The notes beneath the pieces are model-generated. The model ran no database searches. It was given only the letters and a program-made list of their open reading frames with translations, and had not been told where the DNA came from. Position numbers and translations under genes: made by a program. A stretch of DNA of 64,000 nt from Paracoccus sphaerophysae (GTDB lineage Bacteria; Pseudomonadota; Alphaproteobacteria; Rhodobacterales; Rhodobacteraceae), in NCBI RefSeq assembly GCF_000763805.1, contig NZ_JRKS01000008.1:1-64000 (forward strand), written 5' to 3'. Shown in pieces: positions 45,214-59,865 of this stretch (position 1 is its first letter; the number at the start of each line of letters is the position of its first letter).

Positions 45214-46002
45214 TCACCCCGCATCGGTTTCGCCGTTGTGCACAGCCTCGGTTACGCATTGCGTGCCCCAGCCGGCGCAGCGGTCCTGCAGTTCCGCGGG
45301 CAGGGGCGCTTCGGTCACGACGGCGTCCATGTCGGCCAGCGACCCCATCCGCACCGGCGCCGTCCGGGTCAGCTTGCTGAGGTCTGTGACCAGCAGCCGG
45401 GTGCGCGCCTGCCGCAGGATGGTGCGGCTGACCCGCACCTCGGCCAGATCGAAATCCAGCACGTCGCCGTCCATCTCCAGCGCCGAGCATCCGACGACGG
45501 CGAAGTCGACCTTGAAGTTGGCCAGGAACTCGCTGGTCAGGTCGCCCACCAGTCCGCCATCCGACCGTCGCACGATGCCGCCGGCGACGATCACCTCGCA
45601 GCTTTCGTTGTCGATGAGCGTGTTGGCGACGTTCATGTTGTTGGTCACGACCGTCAGGTTCCGGTGCTCCAGCAGCGCCCGGGCCACCGCTTCGGTGGTG
45701 GTCCCGATATTCAGGATCAGCGACGAGTTGTCGGGGATCATTGAGGCGCAGGACCGGCCGATCCGGTCCTTGGCCGACTCGTGCATCACGCGGCGCGCCT
45801 CATAGCCCAGGTTGCTGACCCCGGCGACCAGAACCGCCCCGCCATGCACCCGGTCGAGCAGCCCCTGATCGGCAAGCTCGCCCAGGTCGCGGCGGATCGT
45901 CTGGGCCGAGACCTCGAAACGCTGTGCAAGATCCTCGACCTCGACCCAGCCAGCGGCCCGGGCAAGCTTGAGGATATCGAGCTGTCTGAGGCTGTGCACC
46001 AT
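45214..46002 (-). CDS. glpR: DeoR-family regulator GlpR
   Basis: A 262-residue DeoR/GlpR repressor. The N-terminal helix-turn-helix is EVEDLAQRFEVSAQTIRRDL, then LVDRVHGG-like LLDRVHGGAVLV; the sugar-phosphate sensor has NIGTTTEAVARALLEHRNLT. ATG 46002 gives the family start; the frame is open beyond it. It is divergent from the glycerol import operon and 39 bases from the first of two identical operator elements. The usual effector is glycerol-3-phosphate. Confidence 0.9.
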   Translation of the reverse strand: MVHSLRQLDILKLARAAGWVEVEDLAQRFEVSAQTIRRDLGELADQGLLDRVHGGAVLVAGVSNLGYEARRVMHESAKDRIGRSCASMIPDNSSLILNIGTTTEAVARALLEHRNLTVVTNNMNVANTLIDNESCEVIVAGGIVRRSDGGLVGDLTSEFLANFKVDFAVVGCSALEMDGDVLDFDLAEVRVSRTILRQARTRLLVTDLSKLTRTAPVRMGSLADMDAVVTEAPLPAELQDRCAGWGTQCVTEAVHNGETDAG

Positions 46003-46040
46003 GTGATCTCCCCTGCCGACCGTTAGCAGGGGATCCTCCG

Positions 46041-46084
46041 CGTGCAAACGAAAATTTGCGCGCGAAAACGAAAAACCGTTGACA
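46041..46084 (+). promoter_or_regulatory. GlpR operator and -35 element of the glycerol import operon
   Basis: A 34-base element (46041-46074) is identical to the one before glpD at 56730-56763. It holds two AACGAAAA direct repeats about 20 bases apart and a TTTGCGCGCGAAA core. A consensus TTGACA -35 box follows at 46079-46084, overlapping the operator edge, so bound repressor would block polymerase. A -10 box is not clear. Confidence 0.8.
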
Positions 46085-46130
46085 AGCCCGCCCGCACTCG
46101 TGATCGATCTGCTCATCAGAAGGGGCTGGA

Positions 46131-46286
46131 ATGCGCGACACCACGGACCTGTTCATCACCCCAGGCGGGATCGACGGATGCGGCATCGCCCGCAACGCCG
46201 CCGGCGCCTGCAGGCCCGGAAGAAAGCACACGGCCATGACCGCTTGCCGGCTTTCCGGACCGCTTCGGCTGAGGGCGGCGGCATGA
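46131..46286 (+). pseudogene. glpD 5' remnant, now a 51-codon leader overlapping glpS
   Basis: A good ribosome site (GAAGGGG) and ATG 46131 start a frame that copies the first 25 codons of glpD: MRDTTDLFITPGGIDGCGIA against [20 protein letters not shown]. It then enters unrelated sequence and stops at TGA 46284-46286, overlapping the glpS ATG as ATGA. The FAD glycine motif is already spoiled. The piece cannot be an enzyme, but it is placed to couple translation into glpS. Confidence 0.75.
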
Positions 46287-47356
46287 CGCTGGAACTGCAG
46301 GGCATCAGCCGCGCAATCGGCGACGAGGTCTGGATCCATCCGACCGATCTTCGGCTGCTGCCCGGGACGATGAACGTGCTGCTGGGTCCGACGCGCGCGG
46401 GCAAGACCACGCTGATGCGGCTGATGGCCGGACTGGACGCGCCGACCAGCGGCAGCATCCTGTGGAACGGCGCCGATGTCACCGGGGTCCGGGTGCAGGA
46501 CCGGGGGGTGGCGATGGTCTATCAGCAGTTCATCAACTACCCCTCGATGAGCGTTTACGACAACATTGCCTCGCCCCTGCGGCTGCAGGGGGTGCCCCGC
46601 GCGCAGGTCGACAGCCGCGTGCGCCAGACCGCCGAGATGATGCGCCTGACCCCGATGCTGGAACGCCGGCCGCTGGAGCTGTCGGGCGGCCAGCAGCAGC
46701 GCACCGCGCTGGCGCGCGCCCTCGTCAAGGGCGCGGGGCTGGTGATGCTGGACGAGCCGCTGGCAAACCTCGACTACAAGCTGCGCGAAGAGCTGCGGGC
46801 CGAGATCCCGCGGATATTCTCGGAATCCGGCGCGATCTTCGTCTATGCCACGACCGAGCCCGAGGAAGCGCTTCTGCTGGGCGGCAACACCGCAACCCTG
46901 TGGGAAGGGCGCATCACCCAGTTCGGCCCCACCCCCGAGGTCTATCGCGCCCCCCGCGACGCCACCACGGCGCGGGTGTTTTCCGACCCGCCGATGAATT
47001 TTGCCCAGGCCGTGATCCGCAACGGTCGCGCGCGTCTGGGCGAGGCCGAATGGGACGTGCCGGGCCTGCCGGACGGGACCTATCAGGCGGGCTTCCGGGC
47101 GAACCACCTCCGGCTTTCGGGAGGCGCACCGGGGGCACTCGCCCTGCCGGCCCGGCTGCGGGCGAGCGAGGTCACCGGGGCCGAAAGCTATCTGCATCTC
47201 GACCATTCGGGCGATCGCTGGATCGCGCTGGTGGACGGCGTCCACCGGCCCGAGCCGGGCCAGGCGCTGACCGTCTGGCTGGATCCGGCCCATGTCTATC
47301 TGTTCGGCTCGGACGGGCTTCTGGCCCGCCCCGCCCCCTATGCACAGGCAGCCTGA
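46283..47356 (+). CDS. glpS: Glycerol ABC transporter ATPase GlpS
   Basis: A 357-residue ATPase of the GlpSTPQV glycerol importer. Walker A is LLGPTRAGKTT near residue 34, the signature LSGGQQQRTALARAL is canonical, and Walker B (LVMLDEPLANLD) keeps the catalytic Glu. The H-loop is unusual: where His is expected the protein reads VYATTEPEEAL, with no His. A C-terminal regulatory beta domain of about 120 residues follows. Start chosen at the ATGA overlap with the leader. It pairs with GlpT. Confidence 0.92.
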   Translation: MTLELQGISRAIGDEVWIHPTDLRLLPGTMNVLLGPTRAGKTTLMRLMAGLDAPTSGSILWNGADVTGVRVQDRGVAMVYQQFINYPSMSVYDNIASPLRLQGVPRAQVDSRVRQTAEMMRLTPMLERRPLELSGGQQQRTALARALVKGAGLVMLDEPLANLDYKLREELRAEIPRIFSESGAIFVYATTEPEEALLLGGNTATLWEGRITQFGPTPEVYRAPRDATTARVFSDPPMNFAQAVIRNGRARLGEAEWDVPGLPDGTYQAGFRANHLRLSGGAPGALALPARLRASEVTGAESYLHLDHSGDRWIALVDGVHRPEPGQALTVWLDPAHVYLFGSDGLLARPAPYAQAA

Positions 47357-47359
47357 GCG

Positions 47360-48438
<1,079 letters not shown>

Positions 48439-48439
<1 letters not shown>

Positions 48440-49305
48440 TGGACAAGCCGCTGAACAACCGCGCCTGGCTGCTCGTCCTTCCGGTCCTGCTGCTGGTCGC
48501 CTTCTCGGCCGTCATCCCGCTGATGACGGTGGTGAACTACTCGGTGCAGGACACGTTCGGGAACAACCAGTTCTTCTGGAACGGCCTGGACTGGTTCCGC
48601 GAGGTGCTGGGCAGCGACCGCATCCGCGCCGCGCTCGGCCGGCAGATCCTGTTCTCGGCCATCATCCTCGCCATCGAGATCCCGCTTGGCATCTTCGTTG
48701 CGCTGAACATGCCGAAACGCGGCTTCTGGGCAAGCCTCTGCCTGGTGCTGATGGCTCTGCCGCTGCTGATCCCGTGGAACGTCGTCGGCACCATCTGGCA
48801 GGTGTTCGGACGGGTGGATATCGGCCTGCTGGGCCGGGCGCTGGCGGCGATGGGGTTCGACTATAACTACGTCAACGACCCCGTCGACGCCTGGGTCACG
48901 ATCATCGTAATGGACGTGTGGCACTGGACCAGCCTTGTGGCGCTGCTGTGTTATGCTGGGCTGCAATCCATCCCCGACGCCTATTACCAGGCCGCGCGCA
49001 TCGATCAGGCCAGCCGGTGGAGCGTGTTCCGCTATATCGAGCTGCCCAAGATGTCGGGCGTGCTGCTGATCGCCGTGCTGCTGCGGTTCATGGACAGCTT
49101 CATGATCTATACCGAGCCGTTCGTGCTGACCGGTGGCGGTCCCGGCAACGCCACCACCTTCCTGTCGATCGACCTCGTCAAGACCGCCATCGGCCAGTTC
49201 GACCTGGGGCCGGCCGCAGCCTTCAGCCTGATCTATTTCCTGGTGATCCTGCTGATTTCCTGGGTGTTCTACACCGTGATGACCGCCCAGAAGGAGACGC
49301 TGTGA
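48439..49305 (+). CDS. glpP: Glycerol ABC transporter permease GlpP
   Basis: A 288-residue MalF-type permease with six hydrophobic helices and the EAA-loop segment AARIDQASRWSVFRYIELPK that contacts an ATPase, followed by the FVLTGGGPGNATTFLSI motif. The start overlaps the glpT stop by one base. Works with GlpQ. Confidence 0.92.
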
Positions 49306-50126
49306 TGGCTGCCCCGCGCGATCACAAGGGCTGGGGATCGGCGTTGGTCATGACGCTGTACCTGCTGTTCCTGCTGGTCCCGATCTACTGGCTCGTGAAC
49401 ATGAGCTTCAAGACGAACGCAGAGATCACCGGCGACTTCAGCCTGTTTCCGCGCCACCTGACCTTCGCCAATTATCGCACCATCCTGACCGACCCCAGCT
49501 GGTACATGGGCTATGTCAACAGCATGATCTATGTCGGCCTGAACACGGTGATTTCGGTCGCCGTCGCGCTGCCGGCGGCCTATGCGTTCAGCCGCTACCG
49601 GTTCATGGGCGACAAGCACCTGTTCTTCTGGCTGCTCACGAACCGGATGGCGCCGCCGGCGGTCTTTGCGCTGCCGTTCTTCCAGCTTTATTCGGCGGTC
49701 GGCCTGTTCGACACCCATATCGCCGTGGCGCTGGCGCATTGCCTGTTCAACGTCCCGCTGGCGGTGTGGATTCTGGAAGGCTTCATGTCGGGCGTCCCGC
49801 GCGAGATCGACGAGACCGCCTATGTCGACGGCTATTCCTTTCAGCGCTTCTTCGTCCGCATCTTCATGCCGCTGATCGCCTCGGGAATCGGGGTGGCGGC
49901 GTTCTTCTGCTTCATGTTCTCGTGGGTCGAGCTGCTGCTGTCGCGCACGCTGACCTCGGTCAACGCCAAGCCGATCGCCGCGACGATGACCCGCACCGTG
50001 TCGGCCTCGGGGCTGGACTGGGGGGTACTGGCCGCGGCGGGCGTGCTGACGATCATTCCGGGCGCGTTGGTGATCTGGTTCGTGCGGAACTACATCGCCA
50101 AGGGCTTTGCATTGGGGAGGGTGTGA
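49305..50126 (+). CDS. glpQ: Glycerol ABC transporter permease GlpQ
   Basis: A 273-residue MalG-type permease. The first helix follows MAAPRDHKGWGSALVMTL; the EAA loop is ETAYVDGYSFQRFFVRIFMP. ATG 49305 overlaps the glpP stop as TGATG; the frame is open much earlier but without permease character. It forms the channel with GlpP. Confidence 0.92.
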   Translation: MAAPRDHKGWGSALVMTLYLLFLLVPIYWLVNMSFKTNAEITGDFSLFPRHLTFANYRTILTDPSWYMGYVNSMIYVGLNTVISVAVALPAAYAFSRYRFMGDKHLFFWLLTNRMAPPAVFALPFFQLYSAVGLFDTHIAVALAHCLFNVPLAVWILEGFMSGVPREIDETAYVDGYSFQRFFVRIFMPLIASGIGVAAFFCFMFSWVELLLSRTLTSVNAKPIAATMTRTVSASGLDWGVLAAAGVLTIIPGALVIWFVRNYIAKGFALGRV

Positions 50127-50560: not shown

Positions 50561-52288
<1,728 letters not shown>

Positions 52289-52436: not shown

Positions 52437-53444
52437 TCAGGAGCCCTCACGGCGCAGGCCGGTGGCGGCATCGAACAGGTGCATCGCACCCGGCCGCACG
52501 GAAAGCCTCAGCGGCTCGGACGGCTGGAAATCGGGCGGCACCACCACCGACACGCGCTCGCCGCCGATCACGCCGTGGACCAGGCGGCTTACGCCCAGTT
52601 CCTCGATCCCGCTCACCTGCATGGACAGCGCGCCGTCCGGGGACGGCACCAGATCCTCGGGGCGGATGCCGACGGTCGTGCCGGGCCGAGCCAGCCCGGG
52701 CAGCACGTCCGACCGCACCAGGTTCATCGGCGTCGACCCGATGAAACCTGCGACAAAGACCGAGGCCGGGCGGCGATAGACCTCGAGCGGGGTGCCGATC
52801 TGTTCCACCCGGCCGCCGTTCAGCACCACCAGCCGGTCGCCCAGGGTCATCGCCTCGACCTGATCGTGGGTGACATAGATCGCGGTCGTGGCCAGCCGCC
52901 GCTGCAGGGTCTTGATCTCCCACCGCATGACCCCGCGCAGCTTGGCGTCAAGGTTCGACAGCGGTTCGTCGAACAGGAAGGCCGCCGGCTCGCGCACGAT
53001 GGCGCGGCCCATGGCGACACGCTGACGCTGGCCGCCCGACAGCTGACGCGGCTTGCGGTCGAGATAGGGGGCGAGTTCAAGCATCCGCGCGGCCTCGTCC
53101 ACGCGGCGGGCGATCTCGGCCGCAGGGGTGCGACGGTTCTTCAGACCGTAGGCGAGGTTCTGGCGCACGCTCATATGCGGGTAAAGCGCATAGTTCTGGA
53201 ACACCATGGCGATGTCGCGGCCGGCGGGCTCGATGTCGTTGACCACCCGGTCCCCGATCGAGACGGTCCCCTCGGTGATCGTCTCCAGCCCCGCGATCAT
53301 CCGCAGCAGCGTGGACTTGCCACAGCCCGACGGGCCGACGAGGACCACGAACTCGCCATCCGCGACGTCGAGATCGACGCCGCCGACCGCACGGGTGCCG
53401 CCGGGATAGACCTTGCCGACGCCGTTGAGGGTGATGCGCGCCAA
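52437..53444 (-). CDS. ugpC: Glycerol-3-phosphate ABC transporter ATPase UgpC
   Basis: A 335-residue MalK-type ATPase. Walker [11 protein letters not shown]-loop [14 protein letters not shown], signature [14 protein letters not shown], Walker [12 protein letters not shown] and H-loop VTHDQVEAM are all standard; an OB-fold regulatory domain follows. It starts one base after ugpE ends. Named UgpC from its operon; alone it could serve any sugar importer. Confidence 0.9.
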
Positions 53445-53445
53445 T

Positions 53446-54294
53446 CTACTTCTCCGTCTCGACCAGGCCCTTGACGAACAGCCGCTGCATCAGGACGACG
53501 ACGAGCAGCGGCGGCAGCACCGCGAGGATCGCGGTCGCCATCACCAGGTGCCATTGCGGCTGCGCGTCGGCGACGTCGGCCATGCGCTTGATCCCGGCGA
53601 CGATGGTGTACTTGTCGCTGCTGGTCGTCACCAGCAGCGGCCACAGATACTGGTTCCAGCCGTAGATGAACATGATGACGAACAGCGCCGCGATGTTGGT
53701 CCGCGACAGGGGCAGCAGGATGTCGCGGAAGAACTTCATCGGGCCGGCGCCGTCGATGCGGGCCGCCTCGGTCAGCTCGTCCGGCATGGTCAGGAACAGC
53801 TGGCGGAACAGGAACGTCGCGGTGGCCGAGGCGATCAGCGGGATAGAGAGCCCGGCATAGGTGTTCAGCAGGCCAAGGTCGGCGACCACCTTGTAGGTCG
53901 GCACGATCCGCACCTCGACCGGCAGCATCAGGGTGGCGAAGATCACCCAGAAGGCCAGCATCCGCAGCGGAAAGCGGAAATAGACGATCGCGAAGGCCGA
54001 CAGGATCGAGATGGCGATCTTTCCGATCGAGATCGACAGGGCCATGATCGCGCTGTTCAGCAGCATCCGCCCCACCGGCGGCATGCCCGAGGTGCTGACG
54101 CCGGTGCTGAACATGCGGGAATAGTTCTCGACCAGGTGGGGCCCCGGCAGGATCGGGACCACGCCCGACATGAAATCGTTCGGCCCATGCGTCGAGGCGA
54201 CGAAGGCGATCCACAGCGGCATGGCGACGACCGCGACGCCGACGATCAGCACCAGATGAGCCAGCAGGTTCAGCAGCGGGCGATCCTCGACCAT
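53446..54294 (-). CDS. ugpE: Glycerol-3-phosphate ABC transporter permease UgpE
   Basis: A 282-residue MalG-type permease beginning [20 protein letters not shown], with the EAA loop [20 protein letters not shown] and the UgpE-like [14 protein letters not shown] segment. Its ATG overlaps the ugpA stop by one base (TGATG). Confidence 0.92.
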
Positions 54295-55172
54295 CAGTAG
54301 GCGACCCGCTTTTCGATCCAGCGGAACTGGATGACGGTGAGGGCGATCACGATCAGCATCAGGATCACCGACTGCGCGGCGGAACTGCCGAGGTTCTGGC
54401 CGATGAAGCCGTCGAACCAGACCTTGTAGACCATGATGTTGGTCGATTGCGCCGGGCCGCCCTCGGTGGTCGCGTCGATCACGCCGAAAGTCTCGAACAT
54501 CGCGTAGACGATGTTGACGACCAGCAGGAAGAAGGTCGTCGGCGACAGCAGCGGCAGGGTGATGGTGAAGAACCGCTTGACCGGCCCGGCGCCGTCGATG
54601 GCCGCTGCCTCGTGCAGGCTTTGCGGAATCGATTGCAGGCCGGCGACGAAGAACAGGAAGCAATAGCTGATCCGGCTCCAGGCGCTGGCGAGGACCACGA
54701 GGATCATGGCGTCGCGCGGACGCATCAGGTGGTTCCAGTCATAGCCGACGCGGTCAAGGACATAGGGCAGCAGGCCGACGGTCGGGTTGAAGATGAACCA
54801 CCACAGAATGCCCGCGACCGCCGGGGCGACCGCGTAGGGCCAGACCAGCAGCGTGGTATAGACCTTGCCGGCGCGCACCAGCCGGTCGACGGCCAACGCG
54901 AGGACCAGGGCAACGCCCAGCGACAGCAAGGTGGTCGCGACAGCGAAGATCGCGGTGACGCGGACCGCGTTCAGATACTCGGCGCTGCCCCACAAGGCGG
55001 CATAGTTGGCGAGCCCGACGAAGCTGGTGCTCAGCCCGAACGCATCCTCGCGCAGGAAACTTTGCCGGATCGCCTGCGCTGCGGGCCACAGGAAGAAGAT
55101 CGCCGTCACCGCTAGCTGGGGCGCCAGCAGCAGCCACGGCAGCAGTCGGTTGCCAAACAGCGCGCGCTTCAT
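54294..55172 (-). CDS. ugpA: Glycerol-3-phosphate ABC transporter permease UgpA
   Basis: A 292-residue MalF-type permease. Motifs include [40 protein letters not shown], the EAA loop [20 protein letters not shown] and [18 protein letters not shown], all close to UgpA. ATG 55172 begins [13 protein letters not shown]; longer versions of the frame lose likeness. Confidence 0.92.
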
Positions 55173-55245
55173 CCGGAGGGAGCCTTCTGCGAAGGAAGGG
55201 GCCGGCGCGCGGGGGCGCCGGCCCGGAACAGGGCGAGGTGCCGCG

Positions 55246-56559
55246 TTACTTGTTCTGCGCCTCGAACTCGGCCAGCAGGGCGTTGCCGCGTTCCACGACC
55301 GCGTCCAGCGCGCCCTGGGCGTCCTTCTTGCCGGCCAGCAACTGCTCGAACTCCTCGTCGATGATCGTGCGGATCTGCACGTAGTTGCCAAAGCGCAGGC
55401 CCTTGGAGTTCTCGGTCGGCTCGTTCAGCGTGATCTGCCGGACGCCGACGTCCGAACCCGGGTTCTTTTCATAGAACCCCTGCTGCCTGGTCAGGTCCTC
55501 CGCCGCCCGGGTGATCGGCAGATAGCCCGAGAACTGGTGCCAGTCGGCCTGCACCTCGGGGCTGGAAAGATAGGTGAAGAACTTGGCGACGCCCTTGTAT
55601 TCCTCGGCCGGGCGGCCCTCCATCACCCACAGCGTGGCGCCGCCGATGATGCTGTTCTGCGGCGCGCCCGCGACGTCGTCATAATAGGGCAGCATGCCGA
55701 AGCCGACCTTGAAGTCCTTGGCGTTGGCGACGACGCCCGCCCGGCTAGCCGAGCTGTTCATGTACATCGCGCATTCCTGGCTGTAGAACATCGGCGGGGC
55801 GTTGTCGCCGTCGGTCGGGCCGCCGTACATGAACACGCCCTCGTCGGCCCACTTCTTCAGGTTGCCCCAGTGCTTCACCTGGACCGGCCCGTTCAGCGAC
55901 AGCCGCGCCGCAGGGCCGCCAAAGCCGTTCTGTTCGGTCCCGATCGGCTGGTTGTGCCAGGCGCTGAGGTTCTCGGTCTGGATCCAGCTGATCCACCCCG
56001 TGGTAAAGCCGCACTTTGCCGCCCCCGACTCCATGATCTTCTTGCTGAAGTCCTCGACCTCGGCCCAGGTCTTGGGCGGCGTCTCGGGGTCAAGCCCGGC
56101 CTTCTGGAACACGTCCTTGTTGTAATAGAAGATCGGGGTCGAGCTGTTGAAGGGCAGCGACAGCATGTTGCCCTCGGGGTCGGTGTAATAGCCGACCACG
56201 GCGGTCACGTAGCTCTTGGGGTCGAATGCCTCGCCCTCGTCCTGCATCAGCTTGTAGACGGGGCGGGTCGCGCCCTTGGCGGCCATCATGGTCCCGGTGC
56301 CGACCTCGAACACCTGCACGATCGCGGGCTGCTGCTTGGCGCGGAAGGCGGCCATCGTGGCGGTCAACGTTTCGGGATAGCTGCCCTTGTAGGACGGGAT
56401 CACGACGTAGTCGGACTGGCTTTCGTTGAAGCCCTTGACGATCTCTTCGAGCTTGGCGCCCAGTTCGCCGCCCATTGCGTGCCACCAGTGGACTTCGGTG
56501 GCGGCGAAAGCCGGGGACGAGGTGAGCAGGGCAAGGCTGGCGGCAGCAAGAAATCGCAC
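55246..56559 (-). CDS. ugpB: Glycerol-3-phosphate-binding periplasmic protein UgpB
   Basis: A 437-residue binding protein with a signal peptide ending SSPAFAA. The mature start [20 protein letters not shown] and the later [20 protein letters not shown] and [20 protein letters not shown] segments are typical UgpB. First gene of ugpBAEC, divergent from glpD; both start from the 260-base control region with the GlpR element. Confidence 0.93.
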
Positions 56560-56729
56560 GGGGATGTCCTCCGAAGGGTCGATGGGATGCAGGCAGCTGC
56601 ATTCGGACGCGGTCTAGGATCGTTCTGTGTCAGACGTGTGACAAAGGAATGACAGAACTGCAACACACCGTTCGTGCCGGACGCGGGTCCTGGTGCGGCC
56701 ATCTTCTGCGTTCGGGACCGGAGCGTGCG

Positions 56730-56773
56730 CGTGCAAACGAAAATTTGCGCGCGAAAACGAAAAGACGTTGACA
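56730..56773 (+). promoter_or_regulatory. GlpR operator and -35 element of glpD, between glpD and ugpB
   Basis: The 34-base element at 56730-56763 is identical to the one before the glycerol import operon (46041-46074), with TTGACA following at 56768-56773. The similarity continues weakly to the glpD ribosome site. Being between divergent ugpB and glpD, it may control both. Confidence 0.8.
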
Positions 56774-56819
56774 AGCCGCCCCGTGGTTGTGATCGCTTTC
56801 CATATCGGAAGGAACTGCG

Positions 56820-58382
56820 ATGCGCGACGCCACGGACCTGTTCATCATCGGCGGGGGGATCAACGGATGCGGCATCGCCCGCGACGCTGCGGGCCGGGGA
56901 CTGAGCGTGCGGCTGGCCGAACAGGGCGACCTGGCCAGCGCCACCTCGTCGGCCTCGACCAAGCTGTTCCACGGCGGCCTGCGCTATCTCGAGTTCCTCG
57001 AACTGCGACTGGTCCGCGAGGCGTTGGCCGAGCGCGAGACCCTGCTGCGCGCCATGCCCCATATCAGCTGGCCCATGCGCTTTGTGCTGCCGCTTGATCC
57101 GCAGATGCGGTTCGAAAGCCACACGCCGGTCTCGCGGATCATGCAGACGCTGATGCCTTGGGAACGCGGGCACCGGCCGAACCTGATGATCCGCGCCGGG
57201 CTGTTCCTGTACGATCACCTTGGCAAGCGCAGCATCCTGCGGGGCACCGAAAGTTACCGGCTGACCGGCCGTCCCGAGGGCGAGCCGCTGCAGCCGCGGC
57301 TGCAGCGCGCCTATGAATACAGCGACTGCTGGGTGGATGACGCGCGGCTGGTGGTTCTGAACGCCCGCGACGCGGCAGCGCGCGGGGCCGACATCATCAC
57401 CCGCGCCCGCGTGACCGAGGCCCGGCGCGAGGACGGCATGTGGCAGGTCCGGCTGGCGGACGGCCGCAGCTTCGCCGCCCGCATCCTCGTCAACGCGGCC
57501 GGTCCCTGGGTCGGCGACGTGATCCGCGACGTGGCACATCTGAGCTCGCGCCAACGGATCCGGCTGGTGCGTGGCAGCCATGTCGTGACCCGCCGGCTGT
57601 TCGATCACGACAAGGCCTATTTCTTTCAGGGCGGCGACGGCCGGATCATGTTCGCGATCCCCTACGAACGGGACTTCACGCTGCTGGGCACGACCGACGT
57701 CGATCACCCCGGCCCCCCCGGCAACGCGGAATGTACGCCGGCCGAGGTGGACTATCTGTGCCGCTTCGCCTCGACCTATCTGCGCAAGCCGGTCACGCCG
57801 GACCAGGTCGTGTGGACCTATTCCGGGGTCCGGCCGCTTTACGACGACGGCGCCTCGTCGGCGACCGCCGCGACGCGGGACTATGTCCTGTCGCTGGATA
57901 CCGGAGAAACCGGGGCTGACGCGCCGTGCCTCAACGTGTTCGGCGGCAAGATCACGACCTACCGGCGCCTGGCCGAGGCGGCGTTGACGAAACTGTCCCC
58001 CCATGCCCCGGGCGCCGGTCCCGCCTGGACCGCGGGGGCGCCGCTTCCCGGCGGCGACTTCGCCGTGGACGGGGTGCCGGAGCTGGTCGCGCGGCTGCGC
58101 GCCGATCATCCCTTCCTGACCGACGCATGGGCCGGGCGGCTGGTCCGCGCCTATGGGACCCAGGCTGCGGACATGCTGGCGGGCGCGACGTCGGCTGCCG
58201 ATCTGGGCCGCGACTTCGGGGCGACCCTCACCCAGACCGAGCTGGACTGGATGGTGTCGCGCGAATGGGCCGTTACTGCCGAGGACGCGTTGTGGCGGCG
58301 GTCAAAGCTGGGGTTGCGGATGACGCCGGCGCAGGTTGTGGCGGTCGAGGATCACATGGCCCGGGCAACGAAAGCGGCATGA
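56820..58382 (+). CDS. glpD: Aerobic glycerol-3-phosphate dehydrogenase GlpD
   Basis: A 520-residue FAD enzyme of the inner membrane that oxidises glycerol-3-phosphate to dihydroxyacetone phosphate and passes electrons to quinone. FAD motif [19 protein letters not shown] at residues 9-27, then [32 protein letters not shown] and [10 protein letters not shown] are typical. GGAAGGA precedes ATG 56820. It runs into glpK after seven bases. Confidence 0.95.
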
Positions 58383-58389
58383 GGTCACG

Positions 58390-59865
<1,476 letters not shown>

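Follow-up and report, generated by a model that had tools for sequence, protein, structure and literature searches.

Why does the beginning of glpD stand directly in front of an importer operon when an intact glpD lies elsewhere on the same DNA? In the window, the whole 64,000-nucleotide stretch of Paracoccus sphaerophysae DNA analysed here, a short ATG frame was found between a divergent glpR-type repressor gene and glpS on reading the open reading frames. The features around this frame are as follows.

45214-46002, minus strand: glpR, DeoR/GlpR-family repressor gene, divergent from the remnant (NCBIfam PRK10906, E 8.5e-74, a match of 248 bits that lies under that family's 331-bit cut-off; Pfam DeoRC, E 3.2e-49)
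46031-46130, plus strand: glpD-type control region with three CGAAA elements, TTGACA at 46079-46084 and AAGGGG at 46120-46125; a copy of the region before intact glpD
46131-46286, plus strand: glpD scar frame of 51 codons, ending in an ATGA overlap with glpS
46134-46208, plus strand: GlpD-derived part of the scar, codons 2-26, with the FAD-binding motif spoiled
46254-46334, plus strand: predicted hairpin that encloses the Shine-Dalgarno and the start codon of glpS (-44 kcal/mol, z -3.01)
46271-46286, plus strand: probable glpS start module of the glpD 3′ end, consisting of a weak Shine-Dalgarno, GAGGG, and ATGA (-6.5 kcal/mol)

The scar frame encodes 51 residues, MRDTTDLFITPGGIDGCGIARNAAG...LRLRAAA, of which residues 2-26 match GlpD in two NCBIfam models (NF008899, E 1.6e-4; NF009906, E 1.5e-4). 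Against a profile of 89 GlpD proteins taken from the fetched loci, the frame scores 24.9 bits at profile positions 6-30; among 100 shuffled controls, 46 were reported at all and the best reached 0.0 bits. Pfam gave no match to the frame at E ≤ 1. The ribosome site AAGGGG ahead of the start has a predicted energy of -7.3 kcal/mol, and the original prediction that about 25 codons from the beginning of glpD precede glpS together with a ribosome site is thus borne out. The remnant reads ITPGGIDGCGIARNAAG, with ITPGGI where the intact copy has IIGGGI; the motif altered here is the dinucleotide-binding motif, so that the enzyme motif is indeed spoiled, as had been proposed. A functional GlpD is recognized by full length and an intact dinucleotide-binding motif, and the 51-codon scar has neither.

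At its other end the frame runs open, as predicted, to a TGA (46284-46286) that shares bases with the glpS ATG (46283-46285), making scar and glpS an overlapping gene pair, with the upstream stop overlapping the downstream start, at 46283-46286. Apart from the phase, agreement with the end of glpD is confined here to the last ~16 nt, and ~20 codons separate this tail from the GlpD match at the start. The layout of the glpS start module recurs in 35 of the 44 Paracoccus loci with a local glpD, and AGGGCGGCGGCATGACG is identical in L047. Ahead of its ATG, glpS likewise has an open frame, which extends back to a TTG at 46079 (46079-47356); a gene finder could call a 425-aa glpS there, hiding the scar frame.

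The operon downstream and the second set of glpD features comprise the following.

46283-47356, plus strand: glpS, ABC ATPase gene that opens the importer operon (NCBIfam UgpC-like, E 6.5e-68, below cut-off)
47360-48439, plus strand: glpT, second ABC ATPase (NCBIfam; named by order)
48439-49305, plus strand: glpP, permease (Pfam BPD_transp_1, E 2.1e-18)
49305-50126, plus strand: glpQ, permease (Pfam BPD_transp_1, E 1.7e-10)
50561-52288, plus strand: glpV, probable substrate-binding protein (named by operon order)
56720-56819, plus strand: second copy of the glpD control region, recognized by similarity to the scar control region
56820-58382, plus strand: intact glpD, 520 aa, outside the glpS operon; native, as judged from its grouping with the GlpD of G114 and G025
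58390-59865, plus strand: glpK, directly after glpD

We take the first gene to be glpS from the operon order. No Pfam or NCBIfam match to glpV was found at E ≤ 1; in the matching plasmid regions, an ABC substrate-binding protein is annotated. Glycerol affects the set glpR, D, S, T, P, Q, V, K in another strain (PMC11223650). Between the glpS operon and glpD-glpK lies a second ABC transporter cluster, encoded on the minus strand (52437-56559); this cluster and glpD-glpK together occupy 52437-59865 of the window.

Intact glpD, followed by glpK, thus stands 10.5 kb downstream of the scar, and the two loci share more than coding sequence. Positions 46031-46205 and 56720-56894, which cover control region and start, are identical at 144 of 175 bases (82%); CGAAA elements occur in both control regions, and TTGACA lies 52 nt before the start in both. 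The CGAAA elements may form a GlpR operator, and both this role and that of the promoter are putative; a strict sigma-70 scan found no promoter site. In phylogenetic trees the intact GlpD of the window groups with the local glpD of G114 and G025 (support 89/92), and the window GlpS groups with the same relatives, so the intact copy is native and not a foreign replacement; a foreign origin was rejected on this grouping. Judged from these sequences, glpD has not been lost: it has been relocated, and stands outside the glpS operon with a copy of the control region before it. The idea of a glpD that was simply dead or gone, which overlooked the intact copy, has to be revised accordingly.

We then asked what arrangement preceded the scar. 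Of 125 Paracoccus genomes searched, 88 contain a glpS orthologue of at least 520 bits, and two further genomes match glpS only through paralogues of ~210 bits. From coordinates or sequence, glpD lies directly upstream of glpS in 81 of the 88 loci, including two (G040 and G071) in which a cut contig leaves only the glpD end visible. In G025, G058 and G114 the order is glpR / glpD-S-T-P-Q-U-V-K, with a full glpD between glpR and glpS, and the orthologue of the window glpK directly 3′ of glpV in an undivided operon. At base level, 35 of 44 local-glpD loci show the ATGA overlap between glpD and glpS and the other nine have gaps of 9-60 nt, in a sample that consists of the 49 best-scoring relatives minus five without glpD, leaves the other 37 loci outside, leans towards the window's own clade and includes some near-identical pairs. 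Relatives therefore do keep a full glpD here, mostly with the same ATGA where read, and the comparison supports both an ancestral glpD at the scar site and the deletion that had been postulated.

Retention of an open frame after such a deletion is a separate matter. Among dinucleotide shuffles of the window scar, a fraction of 0.70 stay open, to be multiplied by 1/3 for phase; this product is not improbable, and we rejected the openness of the single window frame as proof of selection. Homology and the common control region exceed chance, whereas openness of the window frame alone does not, and the case thus rests on comparison with relatives.

Seven Paracoccus loci have no adjacent glpD: the window (G000), G015, G019, G029, G030, G069 and G082. 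In five of the seven, a frame opens where glpD used to start and ends in the same ATGA overlap, with sizes of 51 (G000), 90 (G015), 77 (G019), 74 (G030) and 123 codons (G069). The clearest scar is that of G019, in which the GlpD N-terminus (5.5 bits) and C-terminus (27.9 bits) are joined in frame, for a total of 33.4 bits. The G069 scar begins with GTG and matches the GlpD N-terminus at 12.4 bits; no TTGACA was found before it, and its start was placed by the profile match. G030 has a weak N-terminal match of 7.0 bits (best shuffle -0.8). For G015 and G029 the GlpD profile found no match, and hence no N-terminal homology; their starts were placed by promoter layout, with TTGACA 51-52 nt upstream as at the local glpD of G052, and by eye their tails, RMTKMRTVA and PMTKMETAA, resemble glpD ends of the RMTEKRAAA type. 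In G029 (L013), a 26-codon frame leads through ATGA to an 8-codon frame and through a further ATGA to glpS; within these 100 nt before glpS, coupling was apparently kept after a frame shift by restart at an internal ATG.

The scars occupy about five positions in a GlpS tree of 57 rows, where G015 and G029 lie together; support is mixed. The scar peptides differ in sequence and length, and the five scars have no common sequence beyond the GlpD remnants. The product of shuffle openness and phase over the five frames is 5e-6, or 8e-5 when one failing locus (p 0.233) is included, and random deletion phase alone gives 0.004 for five of five and, as the most cautious figure, 0.018 for five of six; all of these values assume independence and chosen starts, and G015 and G029 represent one event. 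The fate of glpD elsewhere in these genomes varies: G015, G029 and G069 have glpR-glpD-glpK together at another site, G082 has glpD-glpK elsewhere, with no glpR match in the 8.5 kb fetched, and all that remains in G019 and G030 are distant GlpD paralogues (47% and 52%). At L142 (G069), GlpS groups with Roseobacter-like sequences (96/77, long branch) and glpD is of Paracoccus type; on these groupings, transfer of the importer operon is possible.

The remaining locus, G082, has no scar start, and by eye its glpS sits after an unrelated gene. A stretch upstream of this glpS (L043) also looks by eye like the glpD end of G019; the GlpD profile does not find the supposed C-terminal remnant.

With a strong glpS Shine-Dalgarno defined as stronger than -8.4 kcal/mol, overlapping glpD-glpS loci have a mean of -5.8 kcal/mol (n = 35, 2 strong). 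Gapped loci differ from these (Mann-Whitney p 2.5e-5), with a mean of -9.8 kcal/mol and 8 strong sites among 9. The six scar loci, including G029, range from -3.3 to -6.5 with none strong, and are indistinguishable from overlapping loci (p 1.0) and distinct from gapped loci plus G082 (n = 10, p 0.0013), in rank tests that, like the preceding one, take no account of relatedness among the genomes. At G082, which alone among the seven lacks a scar, the glpS site is -11.3, the strongest of the 25 scored loci that lack glpD. The start of glpS in the window is additionally buried in the predicted hairpin, which one of 200 shuffles equalled, and its opening energy is 21.8 kcal/mol, where overlapping loci average 11.7 (sd 2.3). 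The idea that scars share a strong hairpin was rejected, since as a group their opening energies are no higher than those of uncoupled loci (p 0.40). The weak glpS site and the window hairpin favour loading of ribosomes at the scar, with coupling by unfolding or reinitiation; both modes have been described in published work (PMC12548453, PMC6728339, PMC7538156).

Taken together, we consider it likely, on comparative sequence evidence, that the window contains a glpD deletion scar kept as a ribosome-loading frame for glpS that is indifferent to its peptide; it is best read as a natural analogue of an in-frame knockout scar. The ancestral operon would have been divergent glpR / glpD-glpS-T-P-Q-U-V-glpK, and its glpD would have ended in ATGA, sharing bases with the start of glpS. 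Its glpS, with only a weak Shine-Dalgarno in the glpD end, would have been translated mainly by ribosomes leaving glpD. In the window lineage, native glpD and its control region would have come to stand before glpK, and the old copy would have lost its middle by internal deletion, which would have joined control region, ribosome site and start codon in frame to the glpS start module. In the present arrangement, ribosomes would enter at the beginning of the scar and translate its 51 codons, which carry no meaning; in doing so they would melt the hairpin that covers the start of glpS, and they would resume translation at ATGA. The scar would then be translated, glpS would depend on it, and selection would have kept the frame. 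Of the original prediction that a deletion had preserved translation into glpS, retention is supported at the sequence level by the parallel remnants and the weak glpS Shine-Dalgarno, whereas the single frame alone shows no selection; a functional leader peptide is unsupported because the parallel remnants differ in sequence and length.

Several loci outside the genus depart from this picture. By coordinates, 13 of 99 glpS genomes outside Paracoccus lack an adjacent glpD; one of them, G320, has a glpD end upstream on a cut contig and was left out, so that 12 remain. Because tblastn had missed the remnants in G397 and G257, the remaining family loci were rescanned with the GlpD profile. The clear in-phase GlpD scar of G397 scores 24.5 bits, largely from the C-terminal part, but is followed by a strong glpS site (-10.4). 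The in-phase frames of G381 and G260 show no homology to GlpD, and the glpS sites there are -10.9 and -7.3, respectively. In G257 (L155), a GlpD remnant of 10.8 bits stops short of a weak glpS site (-4.0); this N-terminal remnant, ~200-60 nt before glpS, is a case of uncoupled decay. For the other eight of the 12, the profile finds no remnant within 700 nt. Among 80 named loci, glpD is adjacent to glpS in 71. The other nine include L063, which is G030; L067 of Palleronia, which is G181; and L110, which begins at glpS on a cut contig and is uninformative. At L078 of Kandeliimicrobium, an in-phase frame begins with TTG and the glpS site is strong, and Oceaniovalibus L140 stands directly on a strong site. 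No scar was seen at L117 and L137, which have strong glpS sites, or at L099 (-5.2) and L138 (-3.5, start uncertain), which have weak ones. The frames of G260, G381 and L078 were not counted as scars, as they have no GlpD match. Given these exceptions, coupling seems to be kept where it is ancestral and not to be a rule for the whole family.

The window frame could instead be plain debris, a decaying glpD fragment open by chance or through recent deletion, with glpS starting on its own site. The unremarkable chance of an open, in-phase frame in the window, the GAGGG site of glpS and the uncoupled remnant beside a weak site in G257 all fit this idea. Nevertheless, the same architecture recurs in about five Paracoccus lineages, several of them far diverged yet open, the glpS site is weak at all six scar loci and strong at G082, and a hairpin covers the window glpS start; we therefore regard debris as unlikely. 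A copying event is a further possibility, in which the glpD control region and 5′ end were captured before glpS from another glpD and no deletion took place here. It would explain the 82% identity over 175 bp between scar and intact glpD regions, and the scar control region had no better match among the loci then fetched. Such capture is nonetheless highly improbable, given that the relatives G025, G114 and G058 have a full glpD between glpR and glpS, that glpR still flanks the scar and that the scar tail keeps the glpD-end module.

A regulatory leader peptide or attenuator, sensing a metabolite by ribosome stalling or a terminator, might also be expected in such a place, where a small frame separates a GlpR-type control region from a transporter operon. 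The scars are alike only in their GlpD remnants and have no conserved peptide or codon pattern. The leader scan gave one terminator-like site, on the minus strand, and none on the plus strand, and Rfam gave no family above cut-off, its one sub-threshold match (E 0.74) also lying on the minus strand. On these grounds we give attenuation very little credence, and return to the scar as a peptide-indifferent loading frame.

As far as the accessible parts of the sources go, this scar resembles engineered and natural systems in several respects. Keio-type deletions keep the start codon and the last seven codons, giving a 34-residue scar peptide (PMC8547470, PMC7771539); like these, the Paracoccus scars probably place the start and C-terminal codons of a deleted gene in one short frame, and would keep downstream translation. 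Unlike these, they are natural, repeated and longer (51-123 codons), and their peptide has diverged freely. The minus-4 overlap and the Shine-Dalgarno inside the upstream frame are those of ATGA termination-reinitiation coupling (PMC6728339, PMC10666635), except that the upstream partner in the scar is no longer a functional gene. Ribosome-delivering uORFs and bicistronic designs likewise rely on a short frame ahead of a gene that is proposed to serve only for driving that gene (PMC12548453), whereas the origin of the scar can be traced to a deleted operon gene. Among the matches listed in the open-licence literature we found no report of a natural knockout-like scar, and the excerpt of PMC11223650, which names the whole gene set, does not discuss one.

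A broader proposal is that translationally coupled operons that lose their first gene repeatedly convert what is left of it into a frame devoted to ribosome loading, in which start, phase and end are selected and the peptide drifts, and which goes only where the next gene gains its own strong site; we hold this generalization to be evenly balanced between true and false. About five natural replicates of one deletion and one natural escape (G082, with a strong Shine-Dalgarno and no scar) would let the effect of translational coupling on operon evolution be measured, and a small frame at the head of an operon may be something other than a gene or junk. Scar lengths also bear on how long knockout scars should be. 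In E. coli deletion libraries (PMC8547470), 34 residues did not suffice as a scar for most genes, whereas with 41 or 60 residues the loss downstream was relieved for most. The natural single-frame scars all have at least 51 codons, and the two-frame chain of G029 is shorter.
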